DNA from: Plazaster borealis
Taxonomy: Eukaryota > Echinodermata > Asteroidea > Forcipulatida > Labidiasteridae
Reading direction: 5' to 3'
Length of the DNA stretch: 64,000 bases
Assembly: GCA_021014325.1 (NCBI GenBank)
Contig: CM037461.1
Location: forward strand, 7,593,501 to 7,657,500
Position 1 is the first letter of the stretch, and the number at the start of each line of letters is the position of its first letter. Shown here one piece after another: positions 10,367 through 62,400 of the stretch. The position numbers and the translations under genes were made by a program. The notes below the pieces were generated by a model. That model was not told the origin of the DNA and searched no databases. It saw only the letters and a program-made list of their open reading frames with translations.

Positions 10367-11010
10367 CATAGTAGGGTCAATATACAGTTTGACCCCAAAA
10401 AATTGTAGCAAAAGGTTTTTCAACGGTTTTGGGTACTATTGGACATCAAAAATAACATATTAAAAATCTAAGAAAATCAGAGTACCGGAAAGCTGTTTTT
10501 TTCAAAATGGCGTCCAAGATGGCCGCCAATATCCTAAAATGACTATAAGTCAATCATTATTCAACCTACAGTCATAATGTTGGTGTCTACCCCCAGGTTT
10601 TAGGGGTCAGAGAACTCATTGGGACCAACAAAAGGCTCATTGAGTTATCAGGTAGCCTAAAATTCCAAGATGGCATCCAAAATGGCCGTCAATACGCTTA
10701 AATGGCTACAAGTCAATTCATATTCACCCTAGGAGTTTAATTTTTGGTGTTTACATCTATCTTGTACGGATCGAGAAACCCACTAAGGCCAATACAAATT
10801 CAGTGAGTTATCAGGTAACCTAGAAATCCAAGATGGCGTCCAAGATGGCGTCCAAAATGGCGTCCAAAATGGCTGTCAGAGTTTGTCTTCTAACCCAAGT
10901 TTTGTCTCTTTCTTTCACCTACAGATTTAACATTGAGTATGAAGCATTGGCCCATAATTTGTCAAAGATATCAAGTAATCAGGTTATCAATACCAAGATG
11001 GCAGTCTAGA
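10367..11010 (+). repeat. left long terminal inverted repeat of the Academ-like element
   Basis: It matches the reverse complement of 23765-24530. It contains about ten copies of a CCAAGATGGC(G/A)TCC or AAATGGC(C/G)GTC module, several in direct tandem near 10830-10880. Confidence 0.75.
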
Positions 11011-11177
11011 CATTGGTTTGTTTCATTAGCAACATATATGTGCATGCTCATTGACCAATCAGAGCGTGTGTTCTTGCCTTCATGTTATACCTATTGATTT
11101 GGGCTCTTATATGATGAAGACTATTTATTAAGGCTTATAATTTAACTTCAATTGTATACAAAGTTTCAGGTCCTACA

Positions 11178-14100
11178 ATGAATGCTGCAAGTAAAGTCGA
11201 TCCAGAAGTTTGTCCGATCTGTATAGAGGGCTTGGACGATGGAAGTGAAGTAAGTCAAGTTCGTCAAAAGGGTGCTGATGGAATCAATGCAGCAAGTGCA
11301 CAAAGAGGTGAAGATATTGTTGTCACGGCTGGCACTAAAGTGCACACAAAGTGTCGCAAATGGTACACCAACCCACTTGACATAAAGGCTCAACAAGGTA
11401 AGAAAGGTGGACCTTCCAACTCGGTGAAGAGAAGCGCCAGAGTGTCTGCAGGTCCATTTAATAGCAAAACTGATTGTCTATTTTGTGGGACATGTATTGT
11501 GCCAGGAAGTTCGGACTACAGTTGTGTAAAGACGGATTCTTTCGCAAAGACAATATTGGCTTGCTGTGATGATCGTCCGGACAATTGGTCTTTTACCGTG
11601 AAAGGTCGCATCGAATACTACAGTGGGGATTTACATGCTGCAGACTCCTTGTATCACCACATATGTAGTGCAAATTTTCGGAACGGGAAAGATGTACCCG
11701 TGAAGTTTCGGAGTGACAATGAACCAAAACGTAAATGTGGGCGACCCAAGGATCAGGACCAAGAGCAAGCATTCTCTAAATTGTGCTCCTATTTTGAGAT
11801 TAATGATGAAGAACAGCTGACTATTTCAGACCTCAGAAATAAAATGAAAGATTTCCTGACTGGTGAAAATTCCGTTCCATATGGCAATCAGTATCTAAAA
11901 AGCCAACTGGAAGAAAGATATGGAAACTCTATATATATCGCAGAAGGTGAAGGTCTTCATGATATTGTGACAATGAGAGAAAAAACATCTCAGATACTTA
12001 GGTCTTACTTCAAAGGATCAAAACAGGCGGGTGATGAAGAGTCACAAAAGAAAGCAATCATTGAAACAGCAGCTAGGCTCATCAAAAGTGACATTAAAAC
12101 AAATGTTCCGTCTGTCACCGATGAGTATCCCAGTACCGAAATGCTTAAACTTGATTACGCCTTAAACTACCTTCCTGCAACCCTTGACACATTGTTAAAT
12201 TCTCTGTTTGTGGGTAAATACAATCGACGAAAAGTTGCAAGTATTGGTCAAGCAATAATTCAAGCAGTTCGTCCACGGGCTGTTCTTGTGCCATTACAGA
12301 TAGGTCTTGGCGTACAGACACATCATTTGCATCGGTCAAAGTTCATAGTAGACACTCTGAGTGAGATGGGATTCTGTTCTTCCTATGGCGAAGTGCTTCG
12401 ATTTAAGAAGAATGCCGCTGACTATGTTGCTCCTGACCTCTTAGGTGAGGACGTTGATCCAGAAGACACAGCCTTGCTATTTGCTGGTGACAATGTTGAC
12501 CATAACATCGTGACCATTGATGGTAAAGGGACATTTCATGGGATGGGCATGATAGCTGCCTTGACACCAGGACGGAAAACAAACCACATCATTCCCAGGC
12601 AAGATATTTCAGACCTTAACATCATAGAGAATACCAAGGTTGAGATCGTACAGCTTCGCTTTGCCAACCACGCACGTCGCAGTATGAAATTCAAAGACCT
12701 TCCACAGCTTCCAGTTAGTGATATAGGGGTTGATATCTTGTGGGAGCTCTCATTCAACTTCAAACAAGCAACCCTTAATTGGGGCGGCATGATGCACATT
12801 ATTCATCGGGGGAATGAACACCCTGGTCAGTCTTCTATTGTGTATTTGCCAATAATAGATATGTATTCTGGGGATAAGACTTGCATTTTATCCACGTTGG
12901 AGTTCATTTGCAATTTGGCAATGAAACACCACCTTTCACCAGTAATAACTTTTGACCAGCCTCTATATTGGAAAGCTGCAGAGATCATCATTGATGCACC
13001 GCAGAATAGCCACTTGAAAGGAATCGTCTTACTGCTAGGTTGTTTCCACACATTCATGAATTTGCTCGGAGCTATAGGTACACTAAGGCAGGGCACAGGA
13101 CTGAAAAGCATTCTAGAAGCTGTTTATGGTTAAAATGCCGTGGTGCATATGATGACAGGAAAATCGGTCCAAAGAGCATTCCGTGGCCATCTGCTGGTAG
13201 ACAAGTGTCTTAACCAAATGATTATTTCAGACGTGTTGGATGAAAGTCCCGAGCTTGCAACGCTGGTGGAACAGTCTGAGGAAATGTACTCTTCCTTGTT
13301 GGCAGGTGAGATGACTTTCGACAGCATTCTCACATCTGATGCAATCGCCACAATCAAACTAGAACTTGACAAAAGGAAGACTGAACTTCAAGCTAGGTCA
13401 AAGACAAGTCAATTGTGGCTTAATTATCAGAAGATGTTACGTGTTGCCAGAGGGCTGATCATGGCAGATCGTACAGGTTCTTGGTCAGTGCACTTGAGTG
13501 CTGTTGCTGACTGCCTGCCAATTTTTGGAGCGGCTGGGCATTACAAGTACTTGAAATCTGCGTATTTCTATGTTCAAGAAATGAATGAACTTGAGACCCA
13601 ACATCCAGACGTATTCCGTAAATTCAATGACGGTTTCCATGTTATTCGTCGTAGTAATAAGTTCTGGGCTGGCCTTAGCTCTGATCTTGAAGAGTACTGG
13701 AGGCTTAACACGTGGAAGCGGGATGAATGAAGAACAGCGAGCGTTGTGGACAATGTCTCTACCCATAACATCAGAGTACAACAATGCCATGCAAGAATTC
13801 AACAACCTCTCCTATACAACAAGTGAGCAGCATAAAGAATTAACTGAAGCCAGGATCAGCAGAGATTCATCTGACCTGTCAAAGATTAAGTCAAAACTAG
13901 TTGCCAGCACACCCTTTTCTCCAGACCCCTCCTTGAGAAATATTGTTAATGGTGTAGTGGCTACAGAAGATGTGAATGTACATGAAGCTGAATCTGTTGG
14001 AAGAAAATTCATTGACAAAATGGTTGGTCAGCCTGCTTTCACATTCTCTTTCAAACGAAAAGACAAAGCCAAAACCCTTGGGGATATGTCTGCCATCAAG

Positions 14101-14799
14101 ATTGCTCCTGAACAGACCATTGACCCAGCCTTGTTGTTTCAACGGTTTCTAGTAGTGTCCAAAACAGGAGAACTGTCATTGCAAGACGTTATGAGTTATG
14201 AGCTCAGTCCATTCCCTCCTGCCCTTTTTGAGGGCAGAAATGTCTTCCGGAAGGCTGATAAGCCTCAGTTAGCTCACGCTATCGTTGATCATTCAAGCAA
14301 AGTGTCAAATGAAGCCGTCACAGATTCTGTTCCGAATATTGACCATTATGTCCTAGATGGAGGATCCTTGCTGCACCGCTTACTCTGGAAAACTGGAGAC
14401 AGCTATGGTGCAATAGTGCAGTCATATGCAGACTTCACTATTCGTCATTATGGCTTGGCAACTGTGGTCTTTGATGGCTACGACGGAGGTCCGTCCATCA
14501 AGGACAATACACATCTACGACGTGGGCAGAATGTCCATCCAGTTGTCAGTTTTACTGCAGAGACAGAATTTTCAGGCAAAAAGGATGCTTTTTTGTCAAG
14601 AGATAGCAACAAGCAAGGCTTAATCAATCTCATGAGTGATGAACTGAAAAAAGGGAACTGCCATGTGATCAATGCACCTGGGGATGCAGATGTTGATATT
14701 GTTAAGGCAGCAGTTGAAGCCTCGTGTCATCATTCCACCACTTTGATTGGAGAAGACACAGACCTATTAGTTTTGCTCCTTTATCATGCGCGTGCAGAT
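11178..14799 (+). pseudogene. Academ-like transposase, 5' part (zinc fingers + XPG-like nuclease)
   Basis: The start ATG at 11178 follows an AAGTTTCAG acceptor. The N-terminus has a CPIC zinc cluster (residues 12-15) and a second one near residue 97 (CLFCGTC). A long middle region includes a WELSFNFKQ and GGMMHIIHRG stretch. The C-terminal part, in a shifted frame, has VVFDGYDGGPS (near 14465) and GDADVDIVKAAVE followed by GEDTDLLVLL (14675-14780), which resemble the N and I regions of FEN/XPG nucleases. Breaks: an in-frame TAA at 13131-13133, and a small deletion with frameshift near 13685. At 14799 the frame is cut by the RAG1-like element. The 3' part is at 22984-23712. Confidence 0.7.
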
Positions 14800-15039
14800 C
14801 ACGTATGTCCCATGGGATTCGTCGTGCGACATCCGGTCTGACCTTGCGCGTTAGTGCCTTTGTGTAAACAACGCGCGATCTATGTCAACAATGCGAGAAA
14901 ACAGGGCGCCCGCGCGCGGTCAAAATACGTTCGCGGGCTTTGAGATTTCAAAAGTTTTTAAACGGACTAATCAACGAAAGGGAAAGTAGAACTGGCGGGA
15001 AAGATAACCTAATGAATATTTAACATCCAAACCGATTCT

Positions 15040-15129
15040 CCATTAGCCAATCATCATTCTAGGCTAAGCGTTGCCTTCTATTTATATGTAGATCTGTCGC
15101 TACGACTGATGTTCTGGACGCACTTCACG
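15040..15129 (+). promoter_or_regulatory. promoter and non-coding first exon of the RAG1-like gene
   Basis: A CCAAT box (AGCCAATCAT, ~15048), a TATA-like CTATTTATATG (15079-15089) about 30 bp further, and a short exon ending at a GG/GTAAAT donor (15129) lie upstream of the coding exon. The acceptor is AAATACAG at 16088. The upstream 200 bp is unusually GC-rich and rich in CGCG. Predicted from sequence only. Confidence 0.5.
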
Positions 15130-16088
15130 GTAAATAAACCCAATTTTTTGTTTACTTTATGCCAAAGCCCCACCCAAAATTTCTTTAAAATATAAACAAA
15201 AATAAAACATAGATTGTATAATTGTGCGCAAATCTACGAAAATCCCATTATTTTAACTTCAGTTGTCAGATTATTTGACGAATGACGTTGGTTTTCACTT
15301 TAGAGCTAAACTTTTTTTAACGGTACATTGTGTAATTCTCGTCAAGGTCAATGGGGCAATTTGTAATTTGACACCCGTAACATTTCACGAGAAATGCGCT
15401 CAGACGGACCAAGCCACAACGGAGCGCCGTTAAAACCAGGCGTTTGTCGGGCGTGTTTGTGTGTGTTTGTTGGGGTCGTTAAATCTTCACTCGTAGCGTT
15501 CTGCCTGATATAAACAAACGATAAGCTTAAATAGAAGGGGGTCATGTAGCTGCTTCATGCTTTTACCATGGCCAAATAACTTATTCTGGCAAACCTTATG
15601 AAAGTATTTAAGCCATAAACCAGGCCTAAATGAAGTTAAAGGCATTATTGATAAATGAGAAACAAATATTAAAATAATAATAATAAATTAAAATGTAGGC
15701 CTACAGACAGACAGAGAATGTTTTTAACAACCCCATATAAACACTCCAGGCTTAATACAAATCAACAGGCTTGGCCAACCTTTATTTTATTTTATTCAAA
15801 ACATTTATCAATTCCTAGCTAGAGTTTAAAGTCTATGATTTTATGATCATGTTTAGAGTAGTATAACAGTGTAATTTATTACAGTACAATTTTTTTTTTT
15901 AAAGGAAACTTTTCAAATTTCAACAACAACTTTGTCCATTTTTAAAAATTGGCAACCTTATTTTAGGACATTTGATCATACTAAAACTTAAAAAGTAAAA
16001 AGTTGCAAGAATTGTTTTTCAAAGGTGAAATTTATATTATTAAAACTGTTAAATCATAAAAGATTAATTTTTTCTTTCTGAAATACAG

Positions 16089-19000
16089 ATTCAACATGGA
16101 CGATCACAGCAAAATTCTCAAAAGGTTATGTAGACTGTGTGGGGGGCGGTGCTTGTCATCATCTGAGACGAAGGCTGGGAAATGTGCTAAGAGTTGTGCC
16201 AAATACGTAGACAAAATTGTTAGCACATTTCAGGTTGACGTCTCCCATGATGACGAAAGCACTCACCCCCCTCACATGTGTCATTCTTGTTATACTTGTC
16301 TTTTTCTTTCATCCAGGAAAGCTGCCCCCACCTGGCCACCCCACCCAAGAACAGGTGTCTGCACTGTGTGTACAAATTCTGCCCAACAGCTAAAAGCTGG
16401 TCGAAAAAAGAAGCAGAAAAACCCAGGGAGTGGCAGGCCTAGGATTACCCCCGCATGTCTAGAGCACTTCAACAGTCTCCCCCCCTCACCCACAGTCTCC
16501 AGGGATAAGATTCCCAATTTTGAGCCATTGTCAAGTATAGCCCCCGTAGAATGTAAAATTTGCACCCGTTTACTTGACAATGCCCTGGAGACACCTTGCA
16601 TGCATTTATTTTGTTCCGAGTGCTTGACAGCCCACTATAAATCTTTCAGAGAACCTAGCGCCCCATGTCCAGTCTGTCAAGTACCAGTGCACTTCAAGAG
16701 CATCACTGCCCCCCGAGGATATTTTGCTAGTTTATTTTTGAGTACAGCTATGAAGTGCACAGCATGCAAGGTCCATGTAACTGTGGGTGAAATTTCATCC
16801 CATGTTTGTTCATTTACTAACCCACCTACAGTGTCATTTTCAGATAAGATTATTCCGCCATCAACAAGTGAGGTCACCCAGATGTTGCTGCGTCCCCTGA
16901 CTGCAAAGTTAACCCCTCAGATGGAGGCTCTCGGAGCACACATCTTGAAGACCAAGCTCGCCCAATCTGCAGACGGGTTAACAACACAGTACAGCACCGG
17001 TGGTCTGGTGAGTTAAATTGTTTCAAAATTATAAAGCAAAATTTTTGCATTAAATTGTTTTTGAAGTTTACATTTTTTGTTTTCCTCCTTTTCCTTCCTT
17101 GTAAAGAATTTCACATAATGACTAGAGATGCTGAACATGTTTCATCTTTTATTTTGTCTCTTTAAAAGCCTCTGATGACACTTTGTGTCCCCACTCCTCG
17201 GAAAAGCAGCGAGGTTGCCTCCTCCAAAACCATCCGACGGCGCTCAGAGATTTTAGACAAGACTCGTAACCTTCTCAGCAAGGGTGCTACACAGGAGCAG
17301 CATAAGGACGAGATGAAGTTATGCCACCTGCGAAACGATCTGCAGGGCATGTTGCGGGACTTAAAAATGAACACCATCAAGATCCCCAACATGCAGCTCC
17401 TTGCTGCGAAGGCTCACCTGGGAGTCTCTTGGAAGCGCACCAGGGAACTGAAAAGATGGTTGAGGGGATACAACATTCTCACTGAAAGCGAAAACGCCAT
17501 GCGTCGACAACAACAAGATGTCGTGGCAGATAACATCATCGCCGAGAACCTCCCCTTTTCATTCCCTGACGACGTCAATGGAGGAGTTACCATCAAGCCA
17601 GCCCCCTGCGTAGCTGTGAAGTCCCTCGTCGCTAAAGTTAGACAGCAACTAGATGCCTACGAGAAGTAAGAAAATTAGGGGATGTTTAATTAATTTAATT
17701 TTTTCTTTTTAAGAACACAATTGAATAAAATGTTTAAAATTACACTTTGCTCTTATTCTCCTAAACAGGACCGACGAGCTAACTTGGCACGAGGGCAACA
17801 TCCCACAGGACGAGGTTTGGGTCAAGATCGGAGGTGACAAGGGAGGCGGGACGTTCAAACAGATGTTTCAGATCGCCAACGTTGGACGTCCCAATGCCCT
17901 TCGTCACACCGTAGTTGCTTGTGCTTTCGCAGCAGGTGATACCAGCAACAATCTGAAAACAGGGCTCCTGCGCTTCTGCCAACAAGTTGCTGAGCTGCAG
18001 TCCTGCACTTGGAAGAGTCATAACATCAGACTCTTCATGTTCGGGGACTATGAGTATCTCTGCCGAGTGTATGGACTCACCGGGGCTTCAGGTAATTTCA
18101 GTTTGTTTTTCCAAAGTAAAAAAAACTCAAATTATAGACATGCGTTGTAACTGTTAATTTTTCGTACTGAACAGGACGACACTGCTGTCTTTTTTGTGAA
18201 ATCACAAAAGATGACATGCATCAGCCCCGGGAGGATAGGACACCATCCAGGCAGAGGACTCTACAGACCCTGGACGACGACCTCCACAGATTCACCGATG
18301 ATGGCAGTAAACTCTCCAAGGCTAAACTCTTCAACAACGTGATCAAAGAGCCAATGTTTAGGATTCCGCTGACACAGGTAAAAATTTTGCAATTGTTTTT
18401 TAAATTTAGTGTTAATAAAAAATAATAATAATAATAATGAGTAACTAAATGAAAATAAAGGTGAAAATGAGGTAATATTGCATTTACCTTATTTAAGCAT
18501 TTACTTTATTTATGACAGGTTTGCCCACCCGGACTTCACATCAGTCTTGGGTTATACCTCAAGCATTTCAACAGCTTTGAAGGGGCATGTCATGACCTTG
18601 ACATGCAAGTGGCGGCTGTGTTGGCCTTACAAGATGAACATCAAGAAAATCCAGCACTTGGCTCCTGCTTCAAGAGTGTCGTCTCCGTGTTGAAGAGGGC
18701 CCGGCAATTAGATCTGCAGGCAGAGGCTTTGGATGAGGATTTCCGTCTCAAAGAAGAAGAACTTGCGGACACCATCATGTCATCTGTGGAGGGAAGTGCA
18801 GAAATTCAATCTTACATCGATGAAACGACTGCACTGCAGAAGCAACAAGAACATCTGGTAAGCTTTCATAAAATGTAAATCTGTTAGGTTTTTATTAATA
18901 AGAGATCAAGCTTTTCTATTTACTAATTTGACCATGTTATTTTTCAGTTGGCGGAAGCAAAGGCCATTCGTAAAAAGGCAGCGCTCAAGCCAGGTCAAGG

Positions 19001-19831
19001 TCCTCTAGCTGGGCAACTTGACACCATTCTCCAGGATTTCCGGGTGCAGCGACAGGCCTACCATGGGAAGAGTTTTGTTGGCAATCATGTACACAAATGC
19101 TGCAAGGTATATAACAGTCACCTTCCAAAGTTGTAACTTATCGAACTCACAAATTATGAAAACAAGGGGAAAAAATTTCAGATTTGTTTCTACCTTTAAA
19201 TATAACTTATAATTTGTATTTCTTAAAAAAAAGATTGCAATTGTGCTTCACTTATCCAATAATTTTATTAGACATTGTGACTAATTGTGAGTATACACAT
19301 ATGCATAACAAGTATTTTAGAGTAAAAATATTTTACCTATTTTTATTGATGCAGGAAGAAAACATCAAGCTCCTCACCGATGCTGTAGTCAACAAAACCC
19401 GAGATCTTTGTCCTTCCCTGGTGGGCGAAGCAAGAACAGTCGCTGCAAAGTATGCCAAACTATTCCATCTGTTTGGCACTTGTCACCGGACGTACAACAC
19501 CTCATCGGTCCTGGATGGCCCAGCTGTAGATGCATTAAGCCAGGATATTAAGAACTACCTGGCTTATTTCCGCGCCACTTTTCCATCTGAGAGTGTGCCG
19601 CCAAAGATGCATCTACTAGAAGACCATGTCATCCCCTGGCTGCGGCAGTGGCGCTTTGGTCTAGGATTCCACGGCGAGCAAGGAGGGGAGTCTGTCCATG
19701 CCCATCTCAACACCCTCCGGCGTGATGTCCGAGGACTGCATGAAGAGGTGGATATTCTGCAGTCTGTCATCCGGACTCACTGGGTCATGACCAGCCCTGC
19801 CCATGCACCACCCGCTGCCTTTTCAAAATAA
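16089..19831 (+). CDS. RAG1-like DDE transposase, 7 coding exons, intact (969 aa)
   Basis: Exons by GT-AG sites: 16089-17007 (ATG 16096), 17169-17665, 17769-18091, 18175-18377, 18519-18857, 18948-19106, 19355-19831 (TAA). The coding length is 2910 nt and all phases agree, with no stop. Residues 10-110 match the RAG1 N-terminal zinc region in order: LCRLCG, a VxxxFQVDV and HP...CHSC segment, WPPHP and CTVC. A C3HC4 RING lies at about 153-198 (CKIC...CMHLFC...CPVC). The core has GGDKGGG (D493), FGDYEYL (D563), GASGRHCCLFC (C582/C585), MHLLEDH (H897/H902) and GEQGGES (E919/E923), then THWVMTS. RAG1 has the same order: D600, D708, CxxC, HxxxxH, E962, HHWLYTS. H902-E923 spacing is 21 versus 20 in RAG1. 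Likely nuclear, cutting at the CAC ends. The homology is my reading; a Chapaev-type transposase fused to a RAG1-type N-terminus is the alternative. Confidence 0.85.
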
Positions 19832-19930
19832 TTTTATTTTGTTAATTTCCACATAATCACAAGTTTCAATCAATACAGAACTGGTAATTTTCTCACGTGT
19901 AAATAATAAATTTGTATATAGAATTTGAGG

Positions 19931-20405
19931 CATTGCATGGTGGGTATCAATGTATATTTCTTAACTTTTTTCAATAAATTTACATTGCATGGTGGGTATC
20001 GATGTATATTTTTCAATAAATTTACATTGCATGGTGGGTATCAATGTATATTTTTTTTCAATAAATTTACATTGCATGGTGGGTATCAATGTATATTTTT
20101 TTCAATCAATTTACATTGCATGGTGGGTATCAATGTATATTTTTTTCAATCAATTTACATTGCATGGTGGGTATCAATGTATATTTTTTTCAATCAATTT
20201 ACGTTGCATGGTGGGTATCAATGTATATTTTTTTCAATCAATTTACATTGCATGGTGGGTATCTATGTATATTTTTTCAATCAATTTACATTGCATGGTG
20301 GGTATCATTGTATATTTTTTTCAATAAATTTACATTGCATGGTGGGTATCAATGTATATTTCTTTCAATAAATTGGCATAGCATGGTGGGCATATTTGTA
20401 CCTTA
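19931..20405 (+). repeat. ~44-bp minisatellite, 11 units, just 3' of the RAG1-like gene
   Basis: Each unit contains TTGCATGGTGGGTATCAATG then TATATTTTTTTCAATAAATT or a CAATCAATT variant. It begins about 100 bp after the stop codon. Several units carry AATAAA, so it may supply or multiply polyadenylation signals. It happens to be open in all three + frames, which is a consequence of the repeat and not evidence of coding. Confidence 0.9.
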
Positions 20406-21018
20406 ATCTTTGGTGTATGAGCCGCAACATTTTTGAGGGTCAAAATCAATGTATTCCGCGGCTTAAATACACCTAAGATTATGGTACAAGAAACGTGTGT
20501 AAATTTCTGCTTTTAATAAAATGTACAAAACATTATAGGAATTGGAGATAAGTGTTTAACGGGGCACTGTGGCCAGACATTGAATTCTGAACTCCCTTGA
20601 GTTAATGACAGCACCCTTTAAAGCTCTCACTTGTGTTCTGATGGTCAAAGCTTTTATTCGTGATGTGACGGTATTTATTTTATTTTTACTATAGTAACTG
20701 GGTGAGAGTTCATGTTTCCATGCCCAGCCACAAGTGGACTGTGATCATGATGACATTGCCCTTTAACTTTAGACTGGAAACACTGCTTTGCTTTTTCATT
20801 TATATTTCTCTTTCTCTTAGTCTTAGGGGTGTAAATCACTTAATTCTTAGTTTTCAAATTTGAAAGTTAACCCACTTTCCAGGTATTTGAGTAAAAACTG
20901 TATGGCTGGCCCATTGCTTTCCTTTCTGAGGAATATATATATATTTTTTTTCTTTTCAATGCAATCTGTAAAAGCTGCCGCTGAATGGGGGGGGGAGGAG
21001 GTATTGTCAAACATCATG

Positions 21019-21093
21019 TCACCGTGGTCAAGTGGTTAGACTGCAGAACTTGCAATCACAAGGTTGTGGGTTTGAATCCTACCAATCTAACCG
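21019..21093 (+). repeat. tRNA-derived SINE head, truncated
   Basis: A TGGTCAAGTGGTTAGA A-box and GGTTTGAATCC B-box are spaced as in a tRNA. The 3' SINE body is missing; the unit runs straight into the tandem repeat that starts at 21093. Confidence 0.6.
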
Positions 21094-21650
21094 CTGATTT
21101 CACAATGACTAGAATAAGTATGTTCGTCTGGTTACTGAATCACAATTTCTTAATTTGTGCAATTCATAATCATAGACTAGAAGCAGTAACTGGGGCGCTG
21201 TACTCGATTTTTTTGAAAAATGGCGTACAGCGCCCCAGTTACTGGGTCTAATCATAGACAAACAAACATAAATAAATAAAGCAGTCATTTCAACGTTGGT
21301 CGGTTCAGCAAACTCAGCAAAGCCCGCTGATTTCACAATGACTAGAATAAGTATTGTCGTCTAGTTACTGAATCACAATTTCTTAATTTGTGCAATTCAT
21401 AATCATAGACTAGACACAGTTAATGGGGCGCTGTACTCTATTTTTTGACATCTGCAGTCGCTAGTAAAAAGTTAACTTTGATGGACAAGTGCAATTAGGG
21501 AGGCACTGCCGAGCGGTTCAAAAGTAGCCACCGTATAGCGTGGACGACCGCAGATGTCAAAATGGAGTACAGCGCCCCAGTTACTGGTTCTAATTATAGA
21601 CAAACAAACTTAAATAAAGAGAGCAGTCATTTCAAAGTTGCAGCAAACTC
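21093..21650. repeat. tandem duplication of ~233 bp, each unit with a hairpin element
   Basis: Unit A is 21093-21325 and unit B 21326-21650, both beginning GCTGATTTCACAATGACTAG. Each contains an inverted-repeat element with ends CAGTAACTGGGGCGCTGTAC. In unit A (21184-21244) nearly all of its interior is deleted, leaving a 60-bp hairpin; in unit B (21417-21586) it is 170 bp and its interior is itself an inverted repeat (GACATCTGC...GCAGATGTC). Confidence 0.75.
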
Positions 21651-21651
21651 C

Positions 21652-21798
21652 AAAGCCCAGTTCATACATCACACAAATTGCGAGCGAAGCGAATTTCCTT
21701 GCAACCCCATTTAGAAAACAGCACGTACCCGATTGTTTGCCTTTGCGTCACATTATTTGCTTCGCAATTGCTTTCGTGTGAAGTATTAACCGGGCTTT
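21652..21798. mobile_element. 147-bp MITE
   Basis: The ends AAAGCCCAGTTCATAC and, as reverse complement, AAAGCCCGGTTAATAC are inverted repeats that continue through a ...CACAC... and CGAAGCGAA region. There is no coding capacity. No clear target duplication. Confidence 0.7.
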
Positions 21799-22983
21799 AG
21801 AGACCAATGATTGCCAATGTCAATTAATTTCAGATTCAAGTTGCTGGGTTTTCTATGTATTTTTTTTCTCTACATGAGTTTTTACCTGGTTTATTAGTAC
21901 AATTAAGATGGGGTATTTTCTTTCCTTCGTTCCAAAAACAAAACTCGGATTTAAAAAGTCAACATCAGATCGGGTCATTTTTATTTCCAATCATTTAACA
22001 ACAACATGTTGTTCTTGCTCCATGTTCCTTCACAGTTCACACATGGTTCATGGTTCAATCAAGTTTTATTTATACATGATCATGAATGATAACATTGGTG
22101 AATTGTAATTTATTGTAATGTCAGTTTATGCATGGAAGAATAAATCGTTCATCTATGGTTTATTCAATAAACAGCTGACAATTAATATACCTGAAAGAAT
22201 TGAGCCTCTCCACCTGTTTTCTTCACGAAGCGTTCCCCATCCCAGTCTTCACAAAGCCCTTCATGTACATGTACATTACACACACACAGCGTGCATTCAG
22301 CGTAGCCAAGATGCTGACTTCGATCTTGAAGACACGCGGTGTCAGATTACACTACTCAAGGCTGCATAGTCTAGTGTGGTCAGCTAGTGGACCGTGGCTT
22401 AGCAAACGGAATCTTGAACAAATGTGCCAGTTTTTAGTTGAAAATTTGACTTTTTGGAAGCGTAAACGATCCTATTTAGGTACAAAGTTACTATTTTGAG
22501 AAAAAAAGAGGCCAGAAAATGACATATTCATGAACAAATTTACGTTCGAAAAAAAAAGTTTAGCTCTGTTCTAGAACGTAGAGGATCGTTGTAAACATCC
22601 TCGTTCATGGTATTTTAGATTCCAAATCCCCCTCAAATTGCGCTTTTTAAAAAAACCGACAAATTCCCGAAAATAATATGAAAAACGTATTTTTATGACC
22701 ATAATTGTCCCATTTTTGGAACGACGGTAAAATCGTCGCACAATCATTTGTGAAAAAAATTAAAAGACAAACGTAAACAATGAACAAGCCTTTATTGATG
22801 CATATTCATGACAATAGCTAAGACTCCGCCTTCATCCTCTTAAACCCGCCTCCTTATCGATGAGTCATCGCTTGGTTTTCTTAGAACTAAAAATACATAT
22901 GCATGAGCAGATAAGTACCGTGTCATATTACGTTTTTGTTGCGCGTGCGCACATAATTAGTACGCACGGTGGATACGTGAGAT

Positions 22984-23712
22984 AGCAAGGAACTGTATTT
23001 TCGTTCTGACAACCAGTCTAAGTGTATCAAGGTATATAACATCAACAAACTAAAAACTATCCTTCGGAACGACCTGTGTTCGCAGTTACTTTTCATTGAC
23101 GCCTTCACAGGTTGTGATACAACATCCCGGATTTTTGGCATTGGTAAGAAAGCAGCCTTCCAAAAGCTTGTGAAAGGCGACCCCACCATGGAATCGTGCG
23201 CAACTGCATTCCTTCTCCCAAGTCAGTCAAAGAACGTGATACAGGACCTCGGCAGCAAAGCAATGATTGCCGTGTATGGTGGCAGTAGCACGGAGTCACT
23301 TGCATCATTGCGCTACAACATGTTTGTCAAGAAAATAGCATCTGCCAAATCGTTTGTGACACCAGAACGTCTCCCCCCTACTGCTTCTTCTAGCCAATTT
23401 CACTGCCTGAGAGTCTACTACCAGATCATGGTTTGGATTGGGAGAGAAGATAACATGGACGTTATGAAGTGGGGCTGGAAACTTGAGGACAATTGCTTAG
23501 CTCCAACAATGTCAGAAACAAACGCTGCCCCTGATAATCTCCTGAAGATGGTCCATTGCAGCTGTTCAACTGCCTGCTCAACACTCCATTGTAGCTGTAG
23601 GAAATACGGGTTACCATGTCACAGTGTCTGTGTACCGTGCCAACTTGACACGTGTAACAACCCTTATAACCAGTTATTAGAAGAAGAAGAAGAAGAAGAA
23701 GAGCAAGAGTAA
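22984..23712 (+). pseudogene. Academ-like transposase, 3' part with Cys-rich tail
   Basis: This resumes the frame interrupted at 14799 and carries the family motif FIDAFTGCDTTSRIFGIGKK near 23095, a helical region, and a cysteine-rich tail. The tail has a C-x-C...C-x-C-x3-G-x3-C-x3-C-x2-C spacing (HCSCSTACSTLHCSCRKYG, then C...C..C) like a tesmin/CXC zinc-binding module. It ends in a run of glutamates from a GAA microsatellite and a TAA at 23712. Joining across one AGAT copy keeps the frame. No stop occurs in this part; the gene is dead because of lesions upstream. Confidence 0.7.
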
Positions 23713-23764
23713 CAACTCAATAAAAAAGAAAAAGTGAATGTAACTATGATATAGCCATTGATAT

Positions 23765-24530
23765 GCAACCTCATCCAAGATGGCTGCCATTGTGGGTTCA
23801 TTAATGTTTTAAAACTATGATATCCATAACTAGTCTTTTTATCTTTCTCAAACCCTAAAACCTAGGAATAGATCCCAAAATCACAACTCTCAGGTTACCA
23901 GTAAGTATGCATTTAAGTGATAATTGTCGGCTATCTTGAACACCCTTGGAATTCAAGCTTAATACCTGATTTAAATGACACTTTTATTGGTCTTAATGTG
24001 TTTCTTTGACTTTTTACTCAATTTACTGCCATTTTGGATGCCATCTTGGATTTGCAGGTTACCTGATAACTCAATGAACCTTTCATTGGTCTTAATGTGT
24101 TTCTTGACCCCTAAACATAGATGTAGACACCTAAATTGAAACTCTAATGTGAATAGTAAAAGACTTTTAGTCATTTTTAGTGTATTTTAATGTATTGGCG
24201 GCCATTTTGGGCGCCATCTTGGATTTTTAGGTCACCTGATTACTCAATGACATTTTCACTGGTCTTAATGGAATTCTTGACCCCCAAAACATGGGTGTAG
24301 ACACCAAAATGATGACTCTAGGATAAATAATAAATGACTTATTGCCATTTTATTGTAATGGCGGCCATCTTGGACGCCATGTTGAAAATAACCTTTTTTC
24401 TTTGCTCCGAATTTCTTAGATTTTTGATATGTTATTCTTGATGGTCAATACTACCACAATCCGTTAAAAAACCTTTTGTTACAATTTGTTTGGGGTTGAG
24501 GGGTATTTTTTCATAAATTGACCCTACTAA
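23765..24530 (-). repeat. right long terminal inverted repeat of the Academ-like element
   Basis: Reverse complement of the left terminus with substitutions and small gaps. It carries the same ATGGC-based modules, for example GGCGGCCATCTTGGACGCC near 24360. Confidence 0.75.
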
Positions 24531-43338: not shown

Positions 43339-46300
43339 GATGTACACCTCCTCCCCCTCAACCTTTACTTCAATTTCTCACTTCCACCAACCCTGCTCAT
43401 ATTTTATTTAGACGAGACATCCGCAAGTACAATAATGCACTCGCAATGACTTCTTTGGGCTGCCATGAACAAACCCTTCCCGGACAATGGATGCCTACTT
43501 TCAAAATACAGGGACAGATCTACCATTTAATAGGCTCACTTCTTCCTGCAGAAAATCAAGCCCCATCATTTGCGCAGATCTTCATCCATGACACAGAACA
43601 TGAACTAGACAATCGTCTTCGAGGTATTTCTGTAGATCGAAATCAACTCCACCAATTGCAACAAATGCTGCATTCATCCAATCCATACATAGCATCACTC
43701 AAAACTGCAGCTGAATTAGGCCCTGCACCAGATATGTCACTCATCATTCATGCTGACCACAAACCCCAATCTGCTCATAAACGGCAGTATAATGCGCCCA
43801 CATCCAGTGAAATTGCTATACTCATACCAGGTACTACTGAACAAACGGCAGGCAATAGAGACATTATCTTACACCACCGACAAGGAACACACCAAAGGAT
43901 ACATGCAACACACAGAAGCTATGATCCCCTTCACTATGTTCTACTCTTCCCACAGGGTCAAGATGGATGGAGCTTAGGACTGAAACAATGGAATACAGTC
44001 AACAACACTCAGTCATCACGGACATTGACAATGTTAGACTTCTACAAGTATCACCTCATGGTTCGTAATCACCAGGCAAAATTGAACACAGCCGCCTTTC
44101 TTGGATAAGGCATAACCAAACTCAATTACGAGCTGACACATACAGAGGCTTATGTGACGCTATCCATGCTGATGAAGTACAACGTGCTGGCAAATCAGTT
44201 ATCCTTCCTGCATCCTTTGTGGGTAGTCCCCGTTACATGCACCAGAAGTACCTTGATGCCATAGCAATCGTCAGAAAATTTGGCAAACCTGACATCTTCC
44301 TCACATTCACCTGTAACCCATCATGGCCAGAAATCACAACTGAACTTCTATCAAACCAGAAGCCCCACGAAAGACCAGACTTAATCACTAGAGTTTTCAA
44401 TCTCAAATGGAAATCTCTCCTAAGTGACATACTCAAACATAATGTTCTTGGAAAAGTCTTCGCTCATTGCTATACCATTGAATTCCAAAAACGAGGTCTC
44501 CCTCATGCTCATCTACTTTTAATTCTGCACCCAGACAGTAAACCAATGACACCAGACGACTATGATCACCTCACAACTGCCGAGCTACCGAACCCAATTG
44601 TCAATCCCTCTCTCTTCAAGATTGTCACTTCAACAATGGTTCATGGTCCATGTGGTCACCTAAACAAGAACTCCCCATGCATGATTGACAATACTTGCTG
44701 TAAAGGTTATCCAAAAAGTCTCTCGAAGGGAACCCACACAGGAGATGATTCATATCCCATCTACCGACGTCGCAGCCCATCTGACGGAGGTCATACTGCA
44801 TCCATCTCTATCAACCACCGGCAACAACTAACAGTCAATAACTCATGGATTGTGCCCTACAATCCATTCCTCCTACTGAAGTATCAAGGGCACATGAATG
44901 TTGAAATATGTAGCTCCATCAAGGCCGTGAAGTACCTCTATAAGTACATATACAAAGGCCCAGATCGCATAGTCGTCAGTATTGGCACCAACCATGAATC
45001 AACCACTGCAACCGCTCACACTGATGAAGTCTCCAAATATATAGATGCCCATTACATAAGTGCTACTGATGCAATGTACAGAATCTGCGAATTCAATCTC
45101 AACGGCCGCCAACCAACTGTCATACAATTGGCAGTTCACTTACAACATGAACAAACCATCTGTTTCAACCCCAATAAAGACCACACCCCCCTCCTTGAAG
45201 ATCCCCCTAAAACAACACTAACACAATGGTTTGCACTGAATACATCAGACACCTTCGCTGCCACACTTCTATACCCCGACATTCCAATGTACTACTCATG
45301 GACCAAATCAAAGAAGACATGGACCAAACGTAAACGCAACTCAACCTCGCCATATCATCTGAACATATGCTCAACCAATGCAGTAGGACGTCTATATGCT
45401 GTGCATCCATCCCAAGGTGAGTTGTTCTACTTAAGACTACTCTTGCATCACATCCCTGGAGCAAAAAGCTTCACAGACATCAAAACAATCAATGACACCA
45501 CTTGCACGACCTACAAAGCAGCATGTGAACAGTTAAATCTTCTAGACAGTGACAATGAATGGGACAAGTGCCTCAACGATGCTACAGAAGTTGCTTCAGC
45601 TCACTCTCTACGTAACCTCTTCGTCACACTCTTGGTATTTTGCCAACCTTCAGACCCACTTCAACTTTGGCATAAGTATAAAGACCACTTTGCAGATGAC
45701 ATCACACATCGCTTCAGACTTGCTGGGTATCAAATCGCTTCAGCTGATACACAATGAAGTACTTCTTGATATTCAACTCAAACTGCAAAGACTACACAAA
45801 TCCCTCACTGATTTCAGTCTACCAGTACCAGTAACATTCTCTCCACTAACTCAGCTGTCTCAATCTATCCGTGAAGAGTTACAATACAACCCGCAGCTAC
45901 AACAGAGAATTGTTGATACCAACACAGCTAAAATGACACCGGACCAAACAACTGCCTATACAACAATCACCACAGCCCTCCAAACTGATCAAGGTGGCAT
46001 TTTCTTCATTGATGCTCCAGGAGGCACAGGCAAGACATTCCTATTAAATACTCTTCTTGCATTAGTACGTTCACAAGGACATGTCGCACTTGCTGTTGCC
46101 TCCTCTGGCATTGCAGCCACACTTTTAACAGGTGGAAGAACAGCCCATTCACGCTTCAAAATACCTCTCCAAGTACTAGCCAACTCCACTTGCAACATTT
46201 CTCCTTGAGACTCTACAGCTGAACTCATACGCCTTGCAAAAATCATCATCTGGGATGAAGCCCCAATGACCCACAGGCATGCATTCGAAGCTGTGAGTCG

Positions 46301-47314
46301 AACAATGCAAGACATTGTCCAAAATAACCAACCATTCGGTAAGAAACTCATAATACTGGGAGGTGACTTTCGCCAAATCCTGCCCGTTGTTAGGCATGGT
46401 ACAAGAGCCAATATCGTCCAAGCGTCATTGAAAAAATCACCTCTCTGGACATATATCAACACTCTCACATTGACAACTAACATGAGAGCTCACTTGACAG
46501 GAGATGAAGATGCACAAGCATTCTCCAAATTTCTTCTTCAAATAGGCAACGGTTCTTACCCAACAAACGAAGACAACATGCTTGAAATACCTATTACCCT
46601 TCCTACTCCTACTGATAATGCTCTGGACTTAATATCACATGTCTTCCCTGACCTCCAAAATAACTACACCAACAAAGAATGGATGTGCTCCCGTGCAATT
46701 CTTGCAACAACAAACAAAACTGTGGATGAAATAATTGAAACGATTCTGAAAACACTTCCTGGAGAGTTCCACACATATCGAAGTGCTGACACAGTCCCAC
46801 TAGACCAGAATCCTACAATGTACCAAGTAGAATTCCTGAACACTTTAACGCCATCTGGGATTCCGCCACACCAACTGACCCTCAAGATCAATACGCCAAT
46901 CATGCTACTCAGAAATTTAAATCCGTCTCAGAGACAATGCAACGGCTCAAGATACATCATAACCAGTATGACTACCAACCTCATACACGCTCTACCCATT
47001 TCAGATGCGGATGGTTCAACACCCATCCTCATACCTAGGATCCCTATGATCCCTGCAGACAATCTCTTCCCATTCAAATTCTACCGCAGACAGTTTCCCG
47101 TTCGCCCATCATTTGCCATGACTATCAATAAAAGCCAAGGTCAAACCCTTCAGCAAGCTGGACTTCTCCTTCACAAGCCGTCTTCACCCATGGCCAACTG
47201 TACGTTGCCATGTCAAGAGTTGGTTCTTCCACAGCTCTTAAACTCATGACAACAGAGCACACCAACAACTCCTACTTCACCAAAAATATTGTCTACCCAG
47301 AAGTTCTACAGTAG
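43200..47314 (+). pseudogene. Helitron Rep/helicase (RepHel), frameshifted
   Basis: An N-terminal zinc-like motif (CRHMDVVCPSCQAKLW ... FGFCC, ~43230-43320) leads into the Helitron N domain. The HUH nuclease has RGLPHAHLLL (near 44495) and the tyrosine-bearing KYLYKYIYKG (near 44940). The Pif1-type SF1B helicase has Walker [12 protein letters not shown] (near 46015), IIWDEAPM (near 46250), GGDFRQILPV and TINKSQGQTL (near 47130). RepHel nicks and unwinds the element for rolling-circle transposition. Breaks: a frameshift near 44100, another near 45752, a TGA at 46206, and a frameshift near 47187. The final YVAMSRV motif is in the last frame, ending at 47312-47314. Confidence 0.9.
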
Positions 47315-52069: not shown

Positions 52070-52345
52070 CCTCGCCCTCTTAAAACCGCCTCCTTATCGA
52101 TGAGTCATCGCTTTGTTTTCTTGGAACTAAAAATACATTTGCATGGCAGGGCCCAATTTCATGGCGCTGCTTACCAAATACTTCGGCGCTTACGCGCATT
52201 GTAACGTGTGTATATTTCTATAGGACACAGCTGGGCGTAAAGCGCAGAATTCCGCGGTAAGCGCAGCAGAGCCATGAAATTGGGCCCTGATAATTACCGG
52301 GTCGTATGACGTTTTTTCGCGCGTGCGCGTTTGAGATTAACGGCG
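52070..52345 (+). mobile_element. right-end fragment of another RAG1-like element copy, split by a MITE
   Basis: CGCCTCCTTATCGATGAGTCATCG and AACTAAAAATACAT match 22840-22900, and ATAATTACCGGGTCGTATGACG onward matches 22910-22935. A MITE (52147-52289) separates the two parts. The terminal CACGTAT has decayed. Confidence 0.65.
52147..52289. mobile_element. 143-bp MITE (GGGCCCAATTTCATGG family), copy 2
   Basis: Same inverted ends as copy 1 at 40334-40480. Uninterrupted copies of its target at 22903 and 57310 show GAGCAGATAA where this element sits, supporting insertion at a CAG/CTG site. Confidence 0.85.
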
Positions 52346-57229: not shown

Positions 57230-57580
57230 CACGTATTCACCGTGCGTACTAATTATGTGCGCACGCGCAACAAAAACGTAATATGACACGGTAATTATCT
57301 GCTCATGCATATGTATTTTTAGTTCTAAGAAAACCAAGCGATGACTCATCGATAAGGAGGCGGGTTTAAGAGGATGAAGGCGGAGTCTTGGCTATTGTCA
57401 TGAGTATATATCAATAAAGGCTTGTTCAATGTTTACGTTTGTCTTTTAATTTTTTTCACAAATGATTGTGCGACGATTTTATCGTCGTTCCAAAAATGGG
57501 ACAATTTTGGTCATAAAAATACGTTTTTCGTATTATTTTCGGGAGTTTGTCAGGTTTTTTAAAAAGCGCAATTTCAGGGG
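57230..57580 (-). mobile_element. right end of a second RAG1-like element copy, inverted
   Basis: It starts exactly with CACGTATTCACCGTGCG and matches the reverse complement of 22615-22979 at most positions, including CGATGACTCATCGATAAGGA and TGTGCGACGATTTTA. The match stops at 57580, where the Gmr1-like LTR begins. Confidence 0.85.
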
Positions 57581-58452: not shown

Positions 58453-59953
58453 AATAAGAAAATTTACATAAGGAAATTTTCGTTTCAAAAAGGAATGTTA
58501 ACATAAATTTCAAAATTATTTAAAATTTAAGCAATTTAGTTACGTCCGACTTAGACATTTTACCATAATCTGCTAACAGCAATAATCTTACAAACACTGT
58601 TACTGGTTTAGCACATCAGAAACAATACCAATTGTGTTTAAGTACATTATTCTAAACTCTGGACAGAGCATCCGCAATTACATTGCTCTTCCCAGCGATA
58701 TGAACAATCTTGAGTGGATATGGTTGCAAAATCAAACTCCAGCGGAATAACCTCTGGTTCTTGGTTTTGAATTTCTCCAAAAACACAAGTGGGTTATGAT
58801 CAGTATAAATGATCGTCTCCCCAGCACCATTCGTTACATACACCTCAAAGTGTTGTAGGGCAAGAACTAAACCTAACGCCTCTTTTTCGATGGTGGAGTA
58901 TTTTGCCTGGTATTTGTTGTTTCTTTGAAAAGTAACTGATAGGTCGCTCGATTCCAGACTCATCATCTTGGAGCAATACTGCTCCGACACCAACATCACT
59001 GGCGTCAATGGCTATTCTGAACGCCTTGTCAAAATTTGGTGCAGCCAGAACTGGTTCGTTTGTCAGAATGGCCTTTAAATTATCAAACGCCTTTTGACAA
59101 GAGTCAGACCAAACAAACTTTACATTCTTCTGTAAAAGTTGAGTCAATGGAGTCGCAATGGTGCTATAGTTTGGAACAAACTTTCTGTAAAATCCACTCA
59201 TACCCAGGAATCTCATCAATTCTCTCTTTCCTGTGGGCATGGGAAATTCTTGAATAGCTTTGATCTTTGCTACTCGGGTTAGCACGTGACCCTGACCGAC
59301 CACATGACCTAAGTAGGTCACCGTTGCTTTGGCAAACTCACTCTTTTTGAGATTCGCCACCAAGTTTGCTTTAGAAAGCTTATCAAACAGGGCACCCAAG
59401 TGTTTCAGATGGTCTTTCCAGTTATCGCTGTATACCAAAATGTCATCAATATAGACAACACAATTGTCCAGCCCAGCAATGACTTGGCTCATCATTCTCT
59501 GAAACGTAGCCGGGGCGTTTTTCATCCCAAAGGGCATTGTTTTACATTGGTAGAGCCCATCGGGTGTCACAAATGCGGAAATTTCTTTGGCTCGGTCAGT
59601 CAAGGGCACCTGCCAATAACCTTTCAACAGATCTATTTTACTGACAAACGCCGAATTTCCCACTCGATCAATACAATCTTCCAACATCGGGATCGGATAA
59701 GAATCCGTCTTAGTTTCTGCATTGACTTTTCTATAATCTATACAAAATCTAAGAGTACCGCCTGGCTTTGGTACCATGACAATGGGAGAACTCCAAGAAC
59801 TCTGACTAGGTTCGATAATGTCATGTTTTATCATGAATTTAACCTCCTCCCGAACCTTGGCTAACTTGTCCGGGTTAAGTCGGTAGGGAGCTTGTTTTAT
59901 AGGTCTTGACTTTCCTACATCAACATCATGAACTGCTACCGACGTACGACCTG

Positions 59954-60761
59954 CCCCCGATTTCACGAAGCGCTGCGACGCGTCGCAAGTGCAAGTTGCG
60001 ACCGGTTACACGTCGTAAGTTGCGATGCGTATAAAAACGATTTCATCAAAGTTACGATGCGTCGGATACGTCGTAAGTTCCTTGACAACGAGGAAGAACA
60101 CGTCGTAAGTTACGACTACCAAAAGGGTCGTCTTAGAAGATGCGATGTGTCATTTGATACGCACAAATACATGCAAAATGGCGTTAATGCTGCTTGCAAA
60201 TCGAGAAGCCGGAAGAGCGTTGCGAAGAGAAAGACTGTTTCGCGACAGAACTAACCCTCTCGACAGTCTAACTGACGATGAAATATTCCGTCGGTATAGA
60301 TTTACCAGACAAGGTATTTATCACATCGTCGAGAGGGTTCGTGGAGACGTTGAACGTGTCACAAGGGTAAGCTTTTAAAACGTCCAATGCTGGCCCCTAT
60401 TAGTTTTTTTAGCAGACGACATTTCACTCTCCTCCAATCATTTTCCATGATTTCTCGCCAGTGCATCCATGTGCGTGGAACGGTACTGAGTGTCTGCCAT
60501 CTTGAATGAACTATATACGCCTGTTTCATGACCAAGTTGCAACAACACAAAACAGCCGTATATCTTTAGCAGTTCATCCTCGTCCAAAGGGTTGTTTTTA
60601 TTTAGAGTGAAAATGGTTTGAGTTGCGACTCGTCGCGCTTACGACATGTTTGGTGAAATGGATTGTAGAACTCGTCGCAGCCGCGACGTGTCTTAGGTCT
60701 GCGACGCATCGCAAACCCTACGATGCGTCGCTACTTGCGATGAGTTTCGTGAAATCGGGGG
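59954..60761 (+). mobile_element. PIF/Harbinger element, 808 bp, non-autonomous
   Basis: Ends CCCCCGATTTCACGAA and TTCGTGAAATCGGGGG are perfect 16-bp inverted repeats flanked by CTG (59951-59953 and 60762-60764). Removing it with one CTG restores the retrotransposon frame. Iterated CGTCGTAAGTT(G/A/C)CGA-type motifs occupy the left 200 bp. Only a first transposase exon remains. Confidence 0.9.
60178..60366 (+). pseudogene. Harbinger transposase, N-terminal exon only
   Basis: The ATG at 60178 gives a protein with RREAGRALRR-like basic start, then LDSLTDDEIFRRYRFTR and IYHIVERV, the N-terminal signature of HARBI1-type transposases. A donor AGG/GTAAGC ends the exon. The catalytic exons are deleted: the right terminal repeat region begins about 250 bp later. 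Confidence 0.8.
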
Positions 60762-60859
60762 CTGGTTTGTCAGAACAAACTTGCTTGTACCTCTGGAGTA
60801 GGTTTGATAAATCTTTCCGTTGGTCATTGTGCAAATAACCAAGGATTTTATCCAAATTA

Positions 60860-62400
60860 GCAAGAATTTCAGAGTTAGAAAGCTGAACAGCTAAAAATTC
60901 AAGTTCAGACGTTTTTGTCTCCAAGTCTTCATTGCATGAGTTGTCATCATCAGGTTTTGCCTCAATGACAGCTACCCCCACAGGCTGGCCAGAATTATCA
61001 CGCTCATAATACTTCTTGAGCATGTTAACATGACAAACTCTTTGGCTCTTTCTTCGGTCTGGGGTACTGATTACGTAATTGACATCATTGAGTTTCTTTT
61101 TGACACAGTAGGGCCCACTAAACTTTGCTTTAAGGGGGTCGCCAGGCAGAGGCAACAGCACTAGCACTTTTTCGCCGGGTTTAAAGATGCGGACTTCAGA
61201 TTTCCTGTCTGCTCTCGTCTTCATGACCCGTTGAGACACTTTCAGATGTTCTTGTGCCACAGAACATGCCCTACACAACCTCTCCTTAAAGTTCGACACA
61301 TAGTCGAGCAGATTGGTCTCCTCATCCTCTGACAAAAACCTCTCCTTAATGAGTTTCAAAGGCCCCCTCACCTCAGGACCGTAGACCAACTCAACGGAGT
61401 AAAACCAGTTGACTCGTTCGGCGAGTCCCTGGTTGCAAACAACAGGAAGGGAATTCCTTTGTCCCAATCTTCTGGGAAATCCTCGCAGTAAGCCCTTATC
61501 ATATTCTTGAGGGTTTGGTGGTACCTCTCTAGAGCTCCTTGAGACTGCGGATGATATGCAGATGATTTTAACTGTTTGATTCCCAGCTCACGCAGAACTT
61601 CCTGAAACACACCCGACATGAAGTTAGACCCCTGATCGGACTGCACTTCTTTCGGTAAACCATATCTTGTGAAAAACTGCATAAGAGCCTCAACAACAAC
61701 TTTGGCTGTTATCTTCCTCAGTGGAATGGCCTCTGGAAATCTGGTGGACAAATCCATTATGGTCAACAAATACTGATGCCCGGACTTCGTCCGCGGTAGA
61801 GGACCCACACAATCCACCAGGACTCTCGTAAACGGCTCATCAAACGCAGGAATCGGTATCATCGGTGCAGGCTTGATCGATGGCTGTGGCTTTCCCACCA
61901 TCTGACACGTATGGCACGTCTTGCAGAATTCCACCACATCTTGATGTAGCTTAGGCCAATAAAAATGAGCCATGACTCTAGCTTGAGTCTTTCTGATACC
62001 AAGATGACCCGCAACCGGAATTTCGTGAGTGATTCTCAAGATCTCATCACGGTAATATGGAGGAACAACAATTTGATGAACAATACTCCATTCTTCATCA
62101 GCTGGTTTCTGGGTAGGTCTCCATTTCCTCATTAACACGCCAGACTTGACGTAGTAGCATTCCGGAACCCCTTGAGCCTCTTCCTCAGAACACGCTGTGC
62201 GGGTGAGCTTCCTCGGATCTGGGTCCACTTTCTGCTGCTCTATCAGCGAGGATCGGCTAAACTTAACATCTTGAGACACTCCCTCCTTTTCTTCTAAATC
62301 ACTAAAAAAAGGTTTCAGCCAGCCAAACACCAGAGTCCTCCTCTATAGGCACTGACTCTGCAACCTCCTTTTCCGTTTGCTTCATCTGAGATCTCGTCAC
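60860..62400 (-). pseudogene. Gmr1-like integrase
   Basis: Read on the minus strand: an HHCC zinc region (THEIPVAGH ... CKTCHTC, near 61915), core motifs VLVDCVGP, VQSDQGSNF and AYHPQSQGALERYH (about 61820-61520), then, after a frameshift near 61415, a C-terminal domain with FSGPYCVKKKLNDVNYVI (near 61100). All three catalytic acidic residues are present. The linker before the HHCC region is in another frame (shift near 62310). No chromodomain is visible. It integrates the cDNA into host DNA. Confidence 0.85.

Follow-up and report, generated by a model that had tools for sequence, protein, structure and literature searches.

The window analysed here is a stretch of 64,000 nucleotides from the sea star Plazaster borealis (assembly GCA_021014325.1, contig CM037461.1, positions 7,593,501 to 7,657,500 of the forward strand). 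It contains an element that is very probably a complete Chapaev cut-and-paste transposon, in which an N-terminal zinc domain of RAG1 type (Chapa) and then a RING precede a DDE core of the predicted RAG1/Transib fold. The features of the element and its insertion site are, in window coordinates:

14796..14799, no strand: left target-site duplication AGAT (single AGAT at the paralogous empty site)
14800..14806, plus strand: left terminal repeat CACGTAT
16096..17007, plus strand: exon 1, N-terminal RAG1-type zinc region (RAG1_imp_bd, residues 2-110) and RING (residues 153-194)
17169..17665, plus strand: exon 2, start of the core; the DUF1280 match (residues 355-548) begins here
17769..18091, plus strand: exon 3, presumed catalytic Asp 493 (17836-17838) and Asp 563 (18046-18048)
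18175..18377, plus strand: exon 4, C(2)C zinc ligands Cys 582 and Cys 585
18519..18857, plus strand: exon 5, LH motif (Leu 651 and His 652)
18948..19106, plus strand: exon 6, where the helical insertion region ends and the C-terminal part of the core begins
19355..19831, plus strand: exon 7, H(4)H (His 897 and His 902), candidate catalytic Glu 919 or Glu 923, stop codon at 19829-19831
19966..20390, plus strand: minisatellite of 44 bp, 9.7 units, downstream of the gene
22973..22979, minus strand: right terminal repeat, CACGTAT read inward
22980..22983, no strand: right target-site duplication AGAT (single AGAT at the paralogous empty site)

Insertion site and transposase gene

The element spans 14800..22979, exactly as given in a preliminary description made from the sequence alone. 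Its left tip CACGTATGTCCC begins at 14800 and its right tip ...GGATACGTG finishes at 22979; the terminal repeat common to both ends is short (CACGTAT, 7 bp). A paralogous site on contig C8 (L074) carries one AGAT and no element, and aligns to the joined flanks of the window element over 1,403 columns at 95.5% identity (93% in the initial match), with small gaps of its own. The window element is a clean insertion, and the matched CAC ends and perfect AGAT duplication of the preliminary description were borne out by the exact coordinates and by the single-AGAT empty site. A long open frame is split by the element into a left part (13585-14841) and a right part (22981-23712).

The ends 5'-CAC and GTG-3' are present in all three full-length copies in the genome and in the ends shown of an internally deleted derivative; a few left tips of the derivative are mutated, e.g. 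in the C9, C13 and C21:8.61 copies. A nonamer-like ACAAAAACG, common to the full-length copies, lies some 41-49 bp in from the right end by visual count; its reading as a recombination signal was rejected, because the ten aligned derivative ends are one base shorter there and no counterpart was seen in the left end in the end alignment. Also inside the element, a duplicated stretch at 21091-21640 with a palindrome at 21175-21253 (arms 87% complementary) is perhaps a nested small element.

Seven exons join in frame to 969 codons and a stop, all six introns are of the GT-AG type, and the exon junctions are spanned by the alignments of relatives (Antedon over 99% of the query, and Patiria over 90%, where the N-terminal end is missing); the uninterrupted multi-exon gene for 969 residues proposed beforehand was recovered in full. 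The encoded protein is an open frame with a predicted RAG1-type DDE core. No tRNA genes were found in a tRNA scan.

Domains, predicted core fold and family assignment

The window protein has Pfam matches above cut-off for RAG1_imp_bd (residues 2-110, E 6.8e-8), RING (153-194, E 1.5e-7) and DUF1280 (PF06918; 355-548, E 7.4e-14); nothing was above cut-off in an NCBIfam scan. In a sequence search of the PDB, the best match was mouse RAG1 (window-protein residues 28-240, E 8e-9), and the RING region matched the RAG1 dimerization domain about equally well as the RINGs of TRAF6 and LNX. For the core, no match to RAG1 or Transib was found by sequence among the best 60 PDB rows listed, nor with the family profile, and the RAG1 Pfam core model, PF12940, did not match the window protein at E<=1 or 22 family members at E<=0.01. 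Because the PDB sequence searches find the N-terminal and RING regions and not the core, the kinship of the core is drawn from structure: the predicted core has the RAG1/Transib-type fold with RAG1 as the top structural match. The structural alignments of the window model mostly start near RAG1 residue 459, past the nonamer-binding domain; with the model of an Antedon relative, some alignments reach RAG1 residue 390, at high root-mean-square deviation. Of the earlier claim that the protein is RAG1-like from end to end, the N-terminal region (by RAG1_imp_bd), the RING and the predicted core fold (by superposition on RAG1) were upheld, and a RAG1 match of the core in PF12940 or by PDB sequence was not; the profile that matched the core instead is that of Chapaev, DUF1280.

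The protein search yielded at least 23 relatives (scoring covered the 8,000 candidates with the most words in common with the query), and the named relatives derive from sea stars, a crinoid, a sea cucumber, sea urchins and lancelets; the label of one relative is presumably that of a sponge. A first alignment comprised 21 relatives and the window protein (P0013 and P0023 left out), and a second one 19 relatives and the window protein (P0013 and P0021-P0023, i.e. 4 of the 23, left out). In a tree of 21 rows (the first alignment without P0021), the window protein clusters with Patiria and Acanthaster (100/99 support); the sea cucumber rows form one group and the sea urchin rows another, and two Antedon rows stand at an open fork. 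The host is inferred to be a sea star. Asp 493, Asp 563, C582/C585, L651/H652, H897/H902 and E919/E923 are invariant in the 20 sequences of the second alignment, and the zinc ligands in the DDE core, CxxC and HxxxxH, are RAG1-spaced as had been noted. Asp 493, Asp 563 and either Glu 919 or Glu 923 are the presumed catalytic residues.

Chapaev transposons are reportedly to be credited to Kapitonov and Jurka (2007). The domain DUF1280 corresponds to Chapaev transposases (PMC3985635). The marks given for Chapaev in the available part of PMC4079192 are duplications of generally 3-4 bp, CAC/GTG ends, and the motifs C(2)C, LH and H(4)H. The window element carries all of them; in its family, 4-bp duplications were read at 13 different sites, and at 11 of these the length is resolved. 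As the C(2)C and H(3-4)H motifs are common to EnSpm, Mirage, Chapaev, Transib and RAG1 (PMC12730594, in the section available), they are not specific to RAG1 when taken by themselves. A Chapa domain and a RING before the core are described for two Chapaev subgroups in the accessible text of PMC4411706 (Kapitonov and Koonin 2015), so this architecture is not new but has been in print since 2015. By published description, as far as the available text goes, those Chapaevs and the window element agree in the DUF1280 core, in the order of the RAG1-type N-terminal zinc region before the RING, in the CAC/GTG ends and 4-bp duplication, and in the three motifs C(2)C, LH and H(4)H; no difference in kind was found. 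The category of the element is already known.

The RAG1-type N-terminal region, the RING, and the RAG1 core fold with RAG1 as top structural match would also suit a RAGL (ProtoRAG/TransibSU) element, or a direct relative of the RAG1/RAG2 transposon after loss of RAG2; RAGL elements share this fold, the N-terminal region and CAC ends. However, the available part of PMC7204232 gives 5 bp as the length of RAGL duplications in protostomes and, with few exceptions, in deuterostomes, against 4 bp here, and describes complete RAGL elements as carrying RAG1L and RAG2L, with echinoderm RAG1L lacking the RING region that is present in the window protein. No RAG2-like or kelch match was found in a Pfam scan of the 15 frames of at least 60 amino acids that lie in the element outside the gene, where a gene of shorter exons could escape. 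Furthermore, the model PF12940, expected to match the core of a RAGL element, misses the window protein (E<=1) and the 22 aligned members (E<=0.01), yet is above cut-off at two loci in the same genome (L076 and L077, contig C3:13.32-13.36 Mb, approximately 41 kb apart), which serve as positive control and mean that RAG1-like sequence distinct from the element is present in this genome. The window element does not fit the RAGL description, and this origin is very unlikely. Transib (HzTransib) also differs by its 5-bp duplications, and in the part of PMC4411706 available, the canonical Transib transposase is without an identifiable domain beyond the core.

The preliminary description had proposed a deuterostome element of the N-RAG-TP type that carries both halves of RAG1 in one gene. 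A closely similar reading, by which a RAG1-like N-terminal unit and a DDE core came together in a secondary fusion, can draw on the fusion assumed for RAG1 in a published hypothesis (PMC8355894, as far as available). N-RAG-TP of Aplysia has the same RAG1-like N-terminal region but is described as an N-terminal part only in the available text of PMC8355894 and PMC2996935, and it is by this description that it is set apart; N-RAG-TP itself may be a Chapaev. Against a secondary fusion, P0003 (crinoid), P0014, P0018 and P0019 already have the N-terminal region and the core joined, each scoring above its Pfam cut-off. The RING is above cut-off in P0014 and weaker in P0003 and P0019, with none in P0018; it is also above cut-off in P0001 and P0015, both without the N-terminal region. 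The sea urchin relative P0006 has a DUF1280 match only, though its alignment extends across the N-terminal part. Among the 22 members of the first alignment, many of which are N-terminally incomplete, DUF1280 was matched in 22 and RAG1_imp_bd in five. Since the two parts are joined in distant relatives and their order is that described for Chapaevs, their union appears to be an old trait of the family and no special feature of the window copy, and a secondary fusion is highly improbable. The proposal of an N-RAG-TP-type element was not supported, and a Chapaev is preferred, given the Chapaev marks, duplications of 4 and not 5 bp, the lack of a RAG2-like frame among those scanned, and the missing match to PF12940.

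Copies, recent movement and distribution in the genome

Two further full-length copies with distinct flanks were found, as was to be checked after the preliminary description, and at 98.5-99.4% identity they agree with its suggestion of recent activity. The copy at C7:9544134 is 99.2 and 99.4% identical to the window copy over two segments (approximately 0.33% substitutions), has different flanks with the duplication TCTT, and its gene is open with four residue changes; the copy at C7:12450423 is 98.5-98.8% identical, with different flanks and the duplication TATA. Further copies are truncated (contigs C543 and C429) or diverged (C2). Within the window, the same element family is also represented by a right end, truncated, at 57230-57580 (96% over 351 bp), and by a shorter fragment at 52076-52149 (93% over 75 bp).

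The internally deleted derivative, of approximately 5 kb, has the same ends and deleted remains of the gene. Its target-site duplications were read by eye: matching 4-bp flanks were found in 11 of the 15 rows checked, and in the other four an end is missing or degraded. These 11 rows represent 10 distinct sites, because the C561 and C563 flanks are identical; two of the duplications (CCCC and GGGG) sit in homopolymer runs, where the duplication length is unresolved. Nineteen derivative copies differ pairwise by 0.2-3.0%. The element has moved recently, and was probably recently active.

A host gene domesticated from a Chapaev element would explain the open frame and the codon-position bias relative to the C2 copy, but is scarcely credible for an element with both ends intact, 4-bp duplications, an empty site at a paralogous locus, and full-length copies elsewhere that are nearly identical. 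As a complete and mobile Chapaev transposon, the element would probably move as follows. A protein would be made from the seven spliced exons, and a transposase dimer would bind the CACGTAT ends; the DDE triad would cut the element out, with a hairpin step likely by analogy with RAG and Transib, and the excised element would be joined to target strands 4 bp apart. The same transposase might also move the derivative in trans.

Several points weigh against this reading. The kinship of the core to RAG1/Transib is by predicted structure only, at approximately 14% identity, and the Chapaev assignment rests on published marks and Pfam and not on direct comparison with Repbase Chapaev sequences. One of the three full-length copies (C7:12450423) has frameshifts. 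Evidence for selection on the protein is limited, because the C2 copy aligns with many gaps of 1-2 bases and the younger copies are without strong codon-position bias (differences 4/3/4, 20/22/31 and 17/21/31). Protein production and mobility are read from the genome sequence.

Matches to the element ends are concentrated on C7. With a left-end probe of 301 bp (best 40 of 46 candidates scored), the 40 matches comprised the three full-length copies and 37 matches at 86-93%; 26 of the 40 are on C7, all within 7.36-14.11 Mb. With a right-end probe of 300 bp (best 40 of 49 scored), 24 of 40 are on C7, and 23 of these inside the same block. As a control, a gypsy-type retroelement of the same window (best 40 of 114 candidates scored, 41 matches) had five of 41 matches on C7 and three in the block; Fisher's exact test of 26/40 versus 3/41 gave p = 3.5e-8, treating the best-scored lists as samples. 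This is the one informative control, and the insertion mode of a retroelement differs from cut-and-paste; a Helitron was dropped as a clustering control for its just two genome matches. The derivative copies are separate insertions and no tandem array, because their flanks differ in those compared, except C561/C563. In a tree of the derivative (no support values), six of the seven rows from outside C7 (five distinct sites) fall into one group with three C7 copies and differ from one another by only 0.2-1.0%; the seventh, on C8, is paired with a C7 copy. Among the left-end matches are eight contigs that seem to be small and unplaced, and these may be part of the C7 block or represent second haplotypes.

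The concentration could be due to local reinsertion with a recent escape after it, or to a block that is non-recombining or otherwise permissive. It is possible, though rather doubtful, that the transposon is still active, with the RAG1 domain order complete but RAG2 absent, and that it was amplified largely in one 7-Mb block by strong local reinsertion (or in a non-recombining block), from which a young subclade recently escaped. If so, it would be a living system in which the roles of RING and Chapa could be tested before RAG2 enters.

In Chapaev as a group, the N-terminal zinc region and the RING of RAG1 already occur in one protein with a catalytic core of RAG1 type. The interest of the window element lies in its intactness, in its possible use as a test system for the origins of RAG1, and in the unexplained concentration in one block, a separate puzzle on the spread of such elements. 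An intact, recently mobile copy would permit direct tests of RAG-like cutting (a hairpin on the flank), of the role of the RING in a transposase, and of function without RAG2.

Neighbouring sequences in the window

The interrupted open frame (11118-14841 and 22981-23712) belongs to a patchily distributed family. The part searched, 13585-14841, matched 708 proteins at E<=0.001, the best 120 of which include proteins of lobster (70% identity), sea spider (61-63%) and limpet (56%). No Pfam match was found for three frames of the interrupted gene, and its spaced Asp-rich motifs presumably recall XPG/FEN-like nucleases. Imperfect inverted repeats of approximately 480 bp (78%) at approximately 10370-24520, with shared tips TAGTAGGGTCAAT, flank the interrupted gene; the Chapaev element may therefore be nested in another, larger DNA transposon.

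A Helitron with matches to Helitron_like_N and PIF1 helicase is located at 44069-47249 (two genome places by a 1-kb probe). The gypsy-type retroelement, with matches to reverse transcriptase and integrase, lies on the minus strand at 58845-62342 and is found at at least 40 genome places, most of those scored being 98-99% identical.

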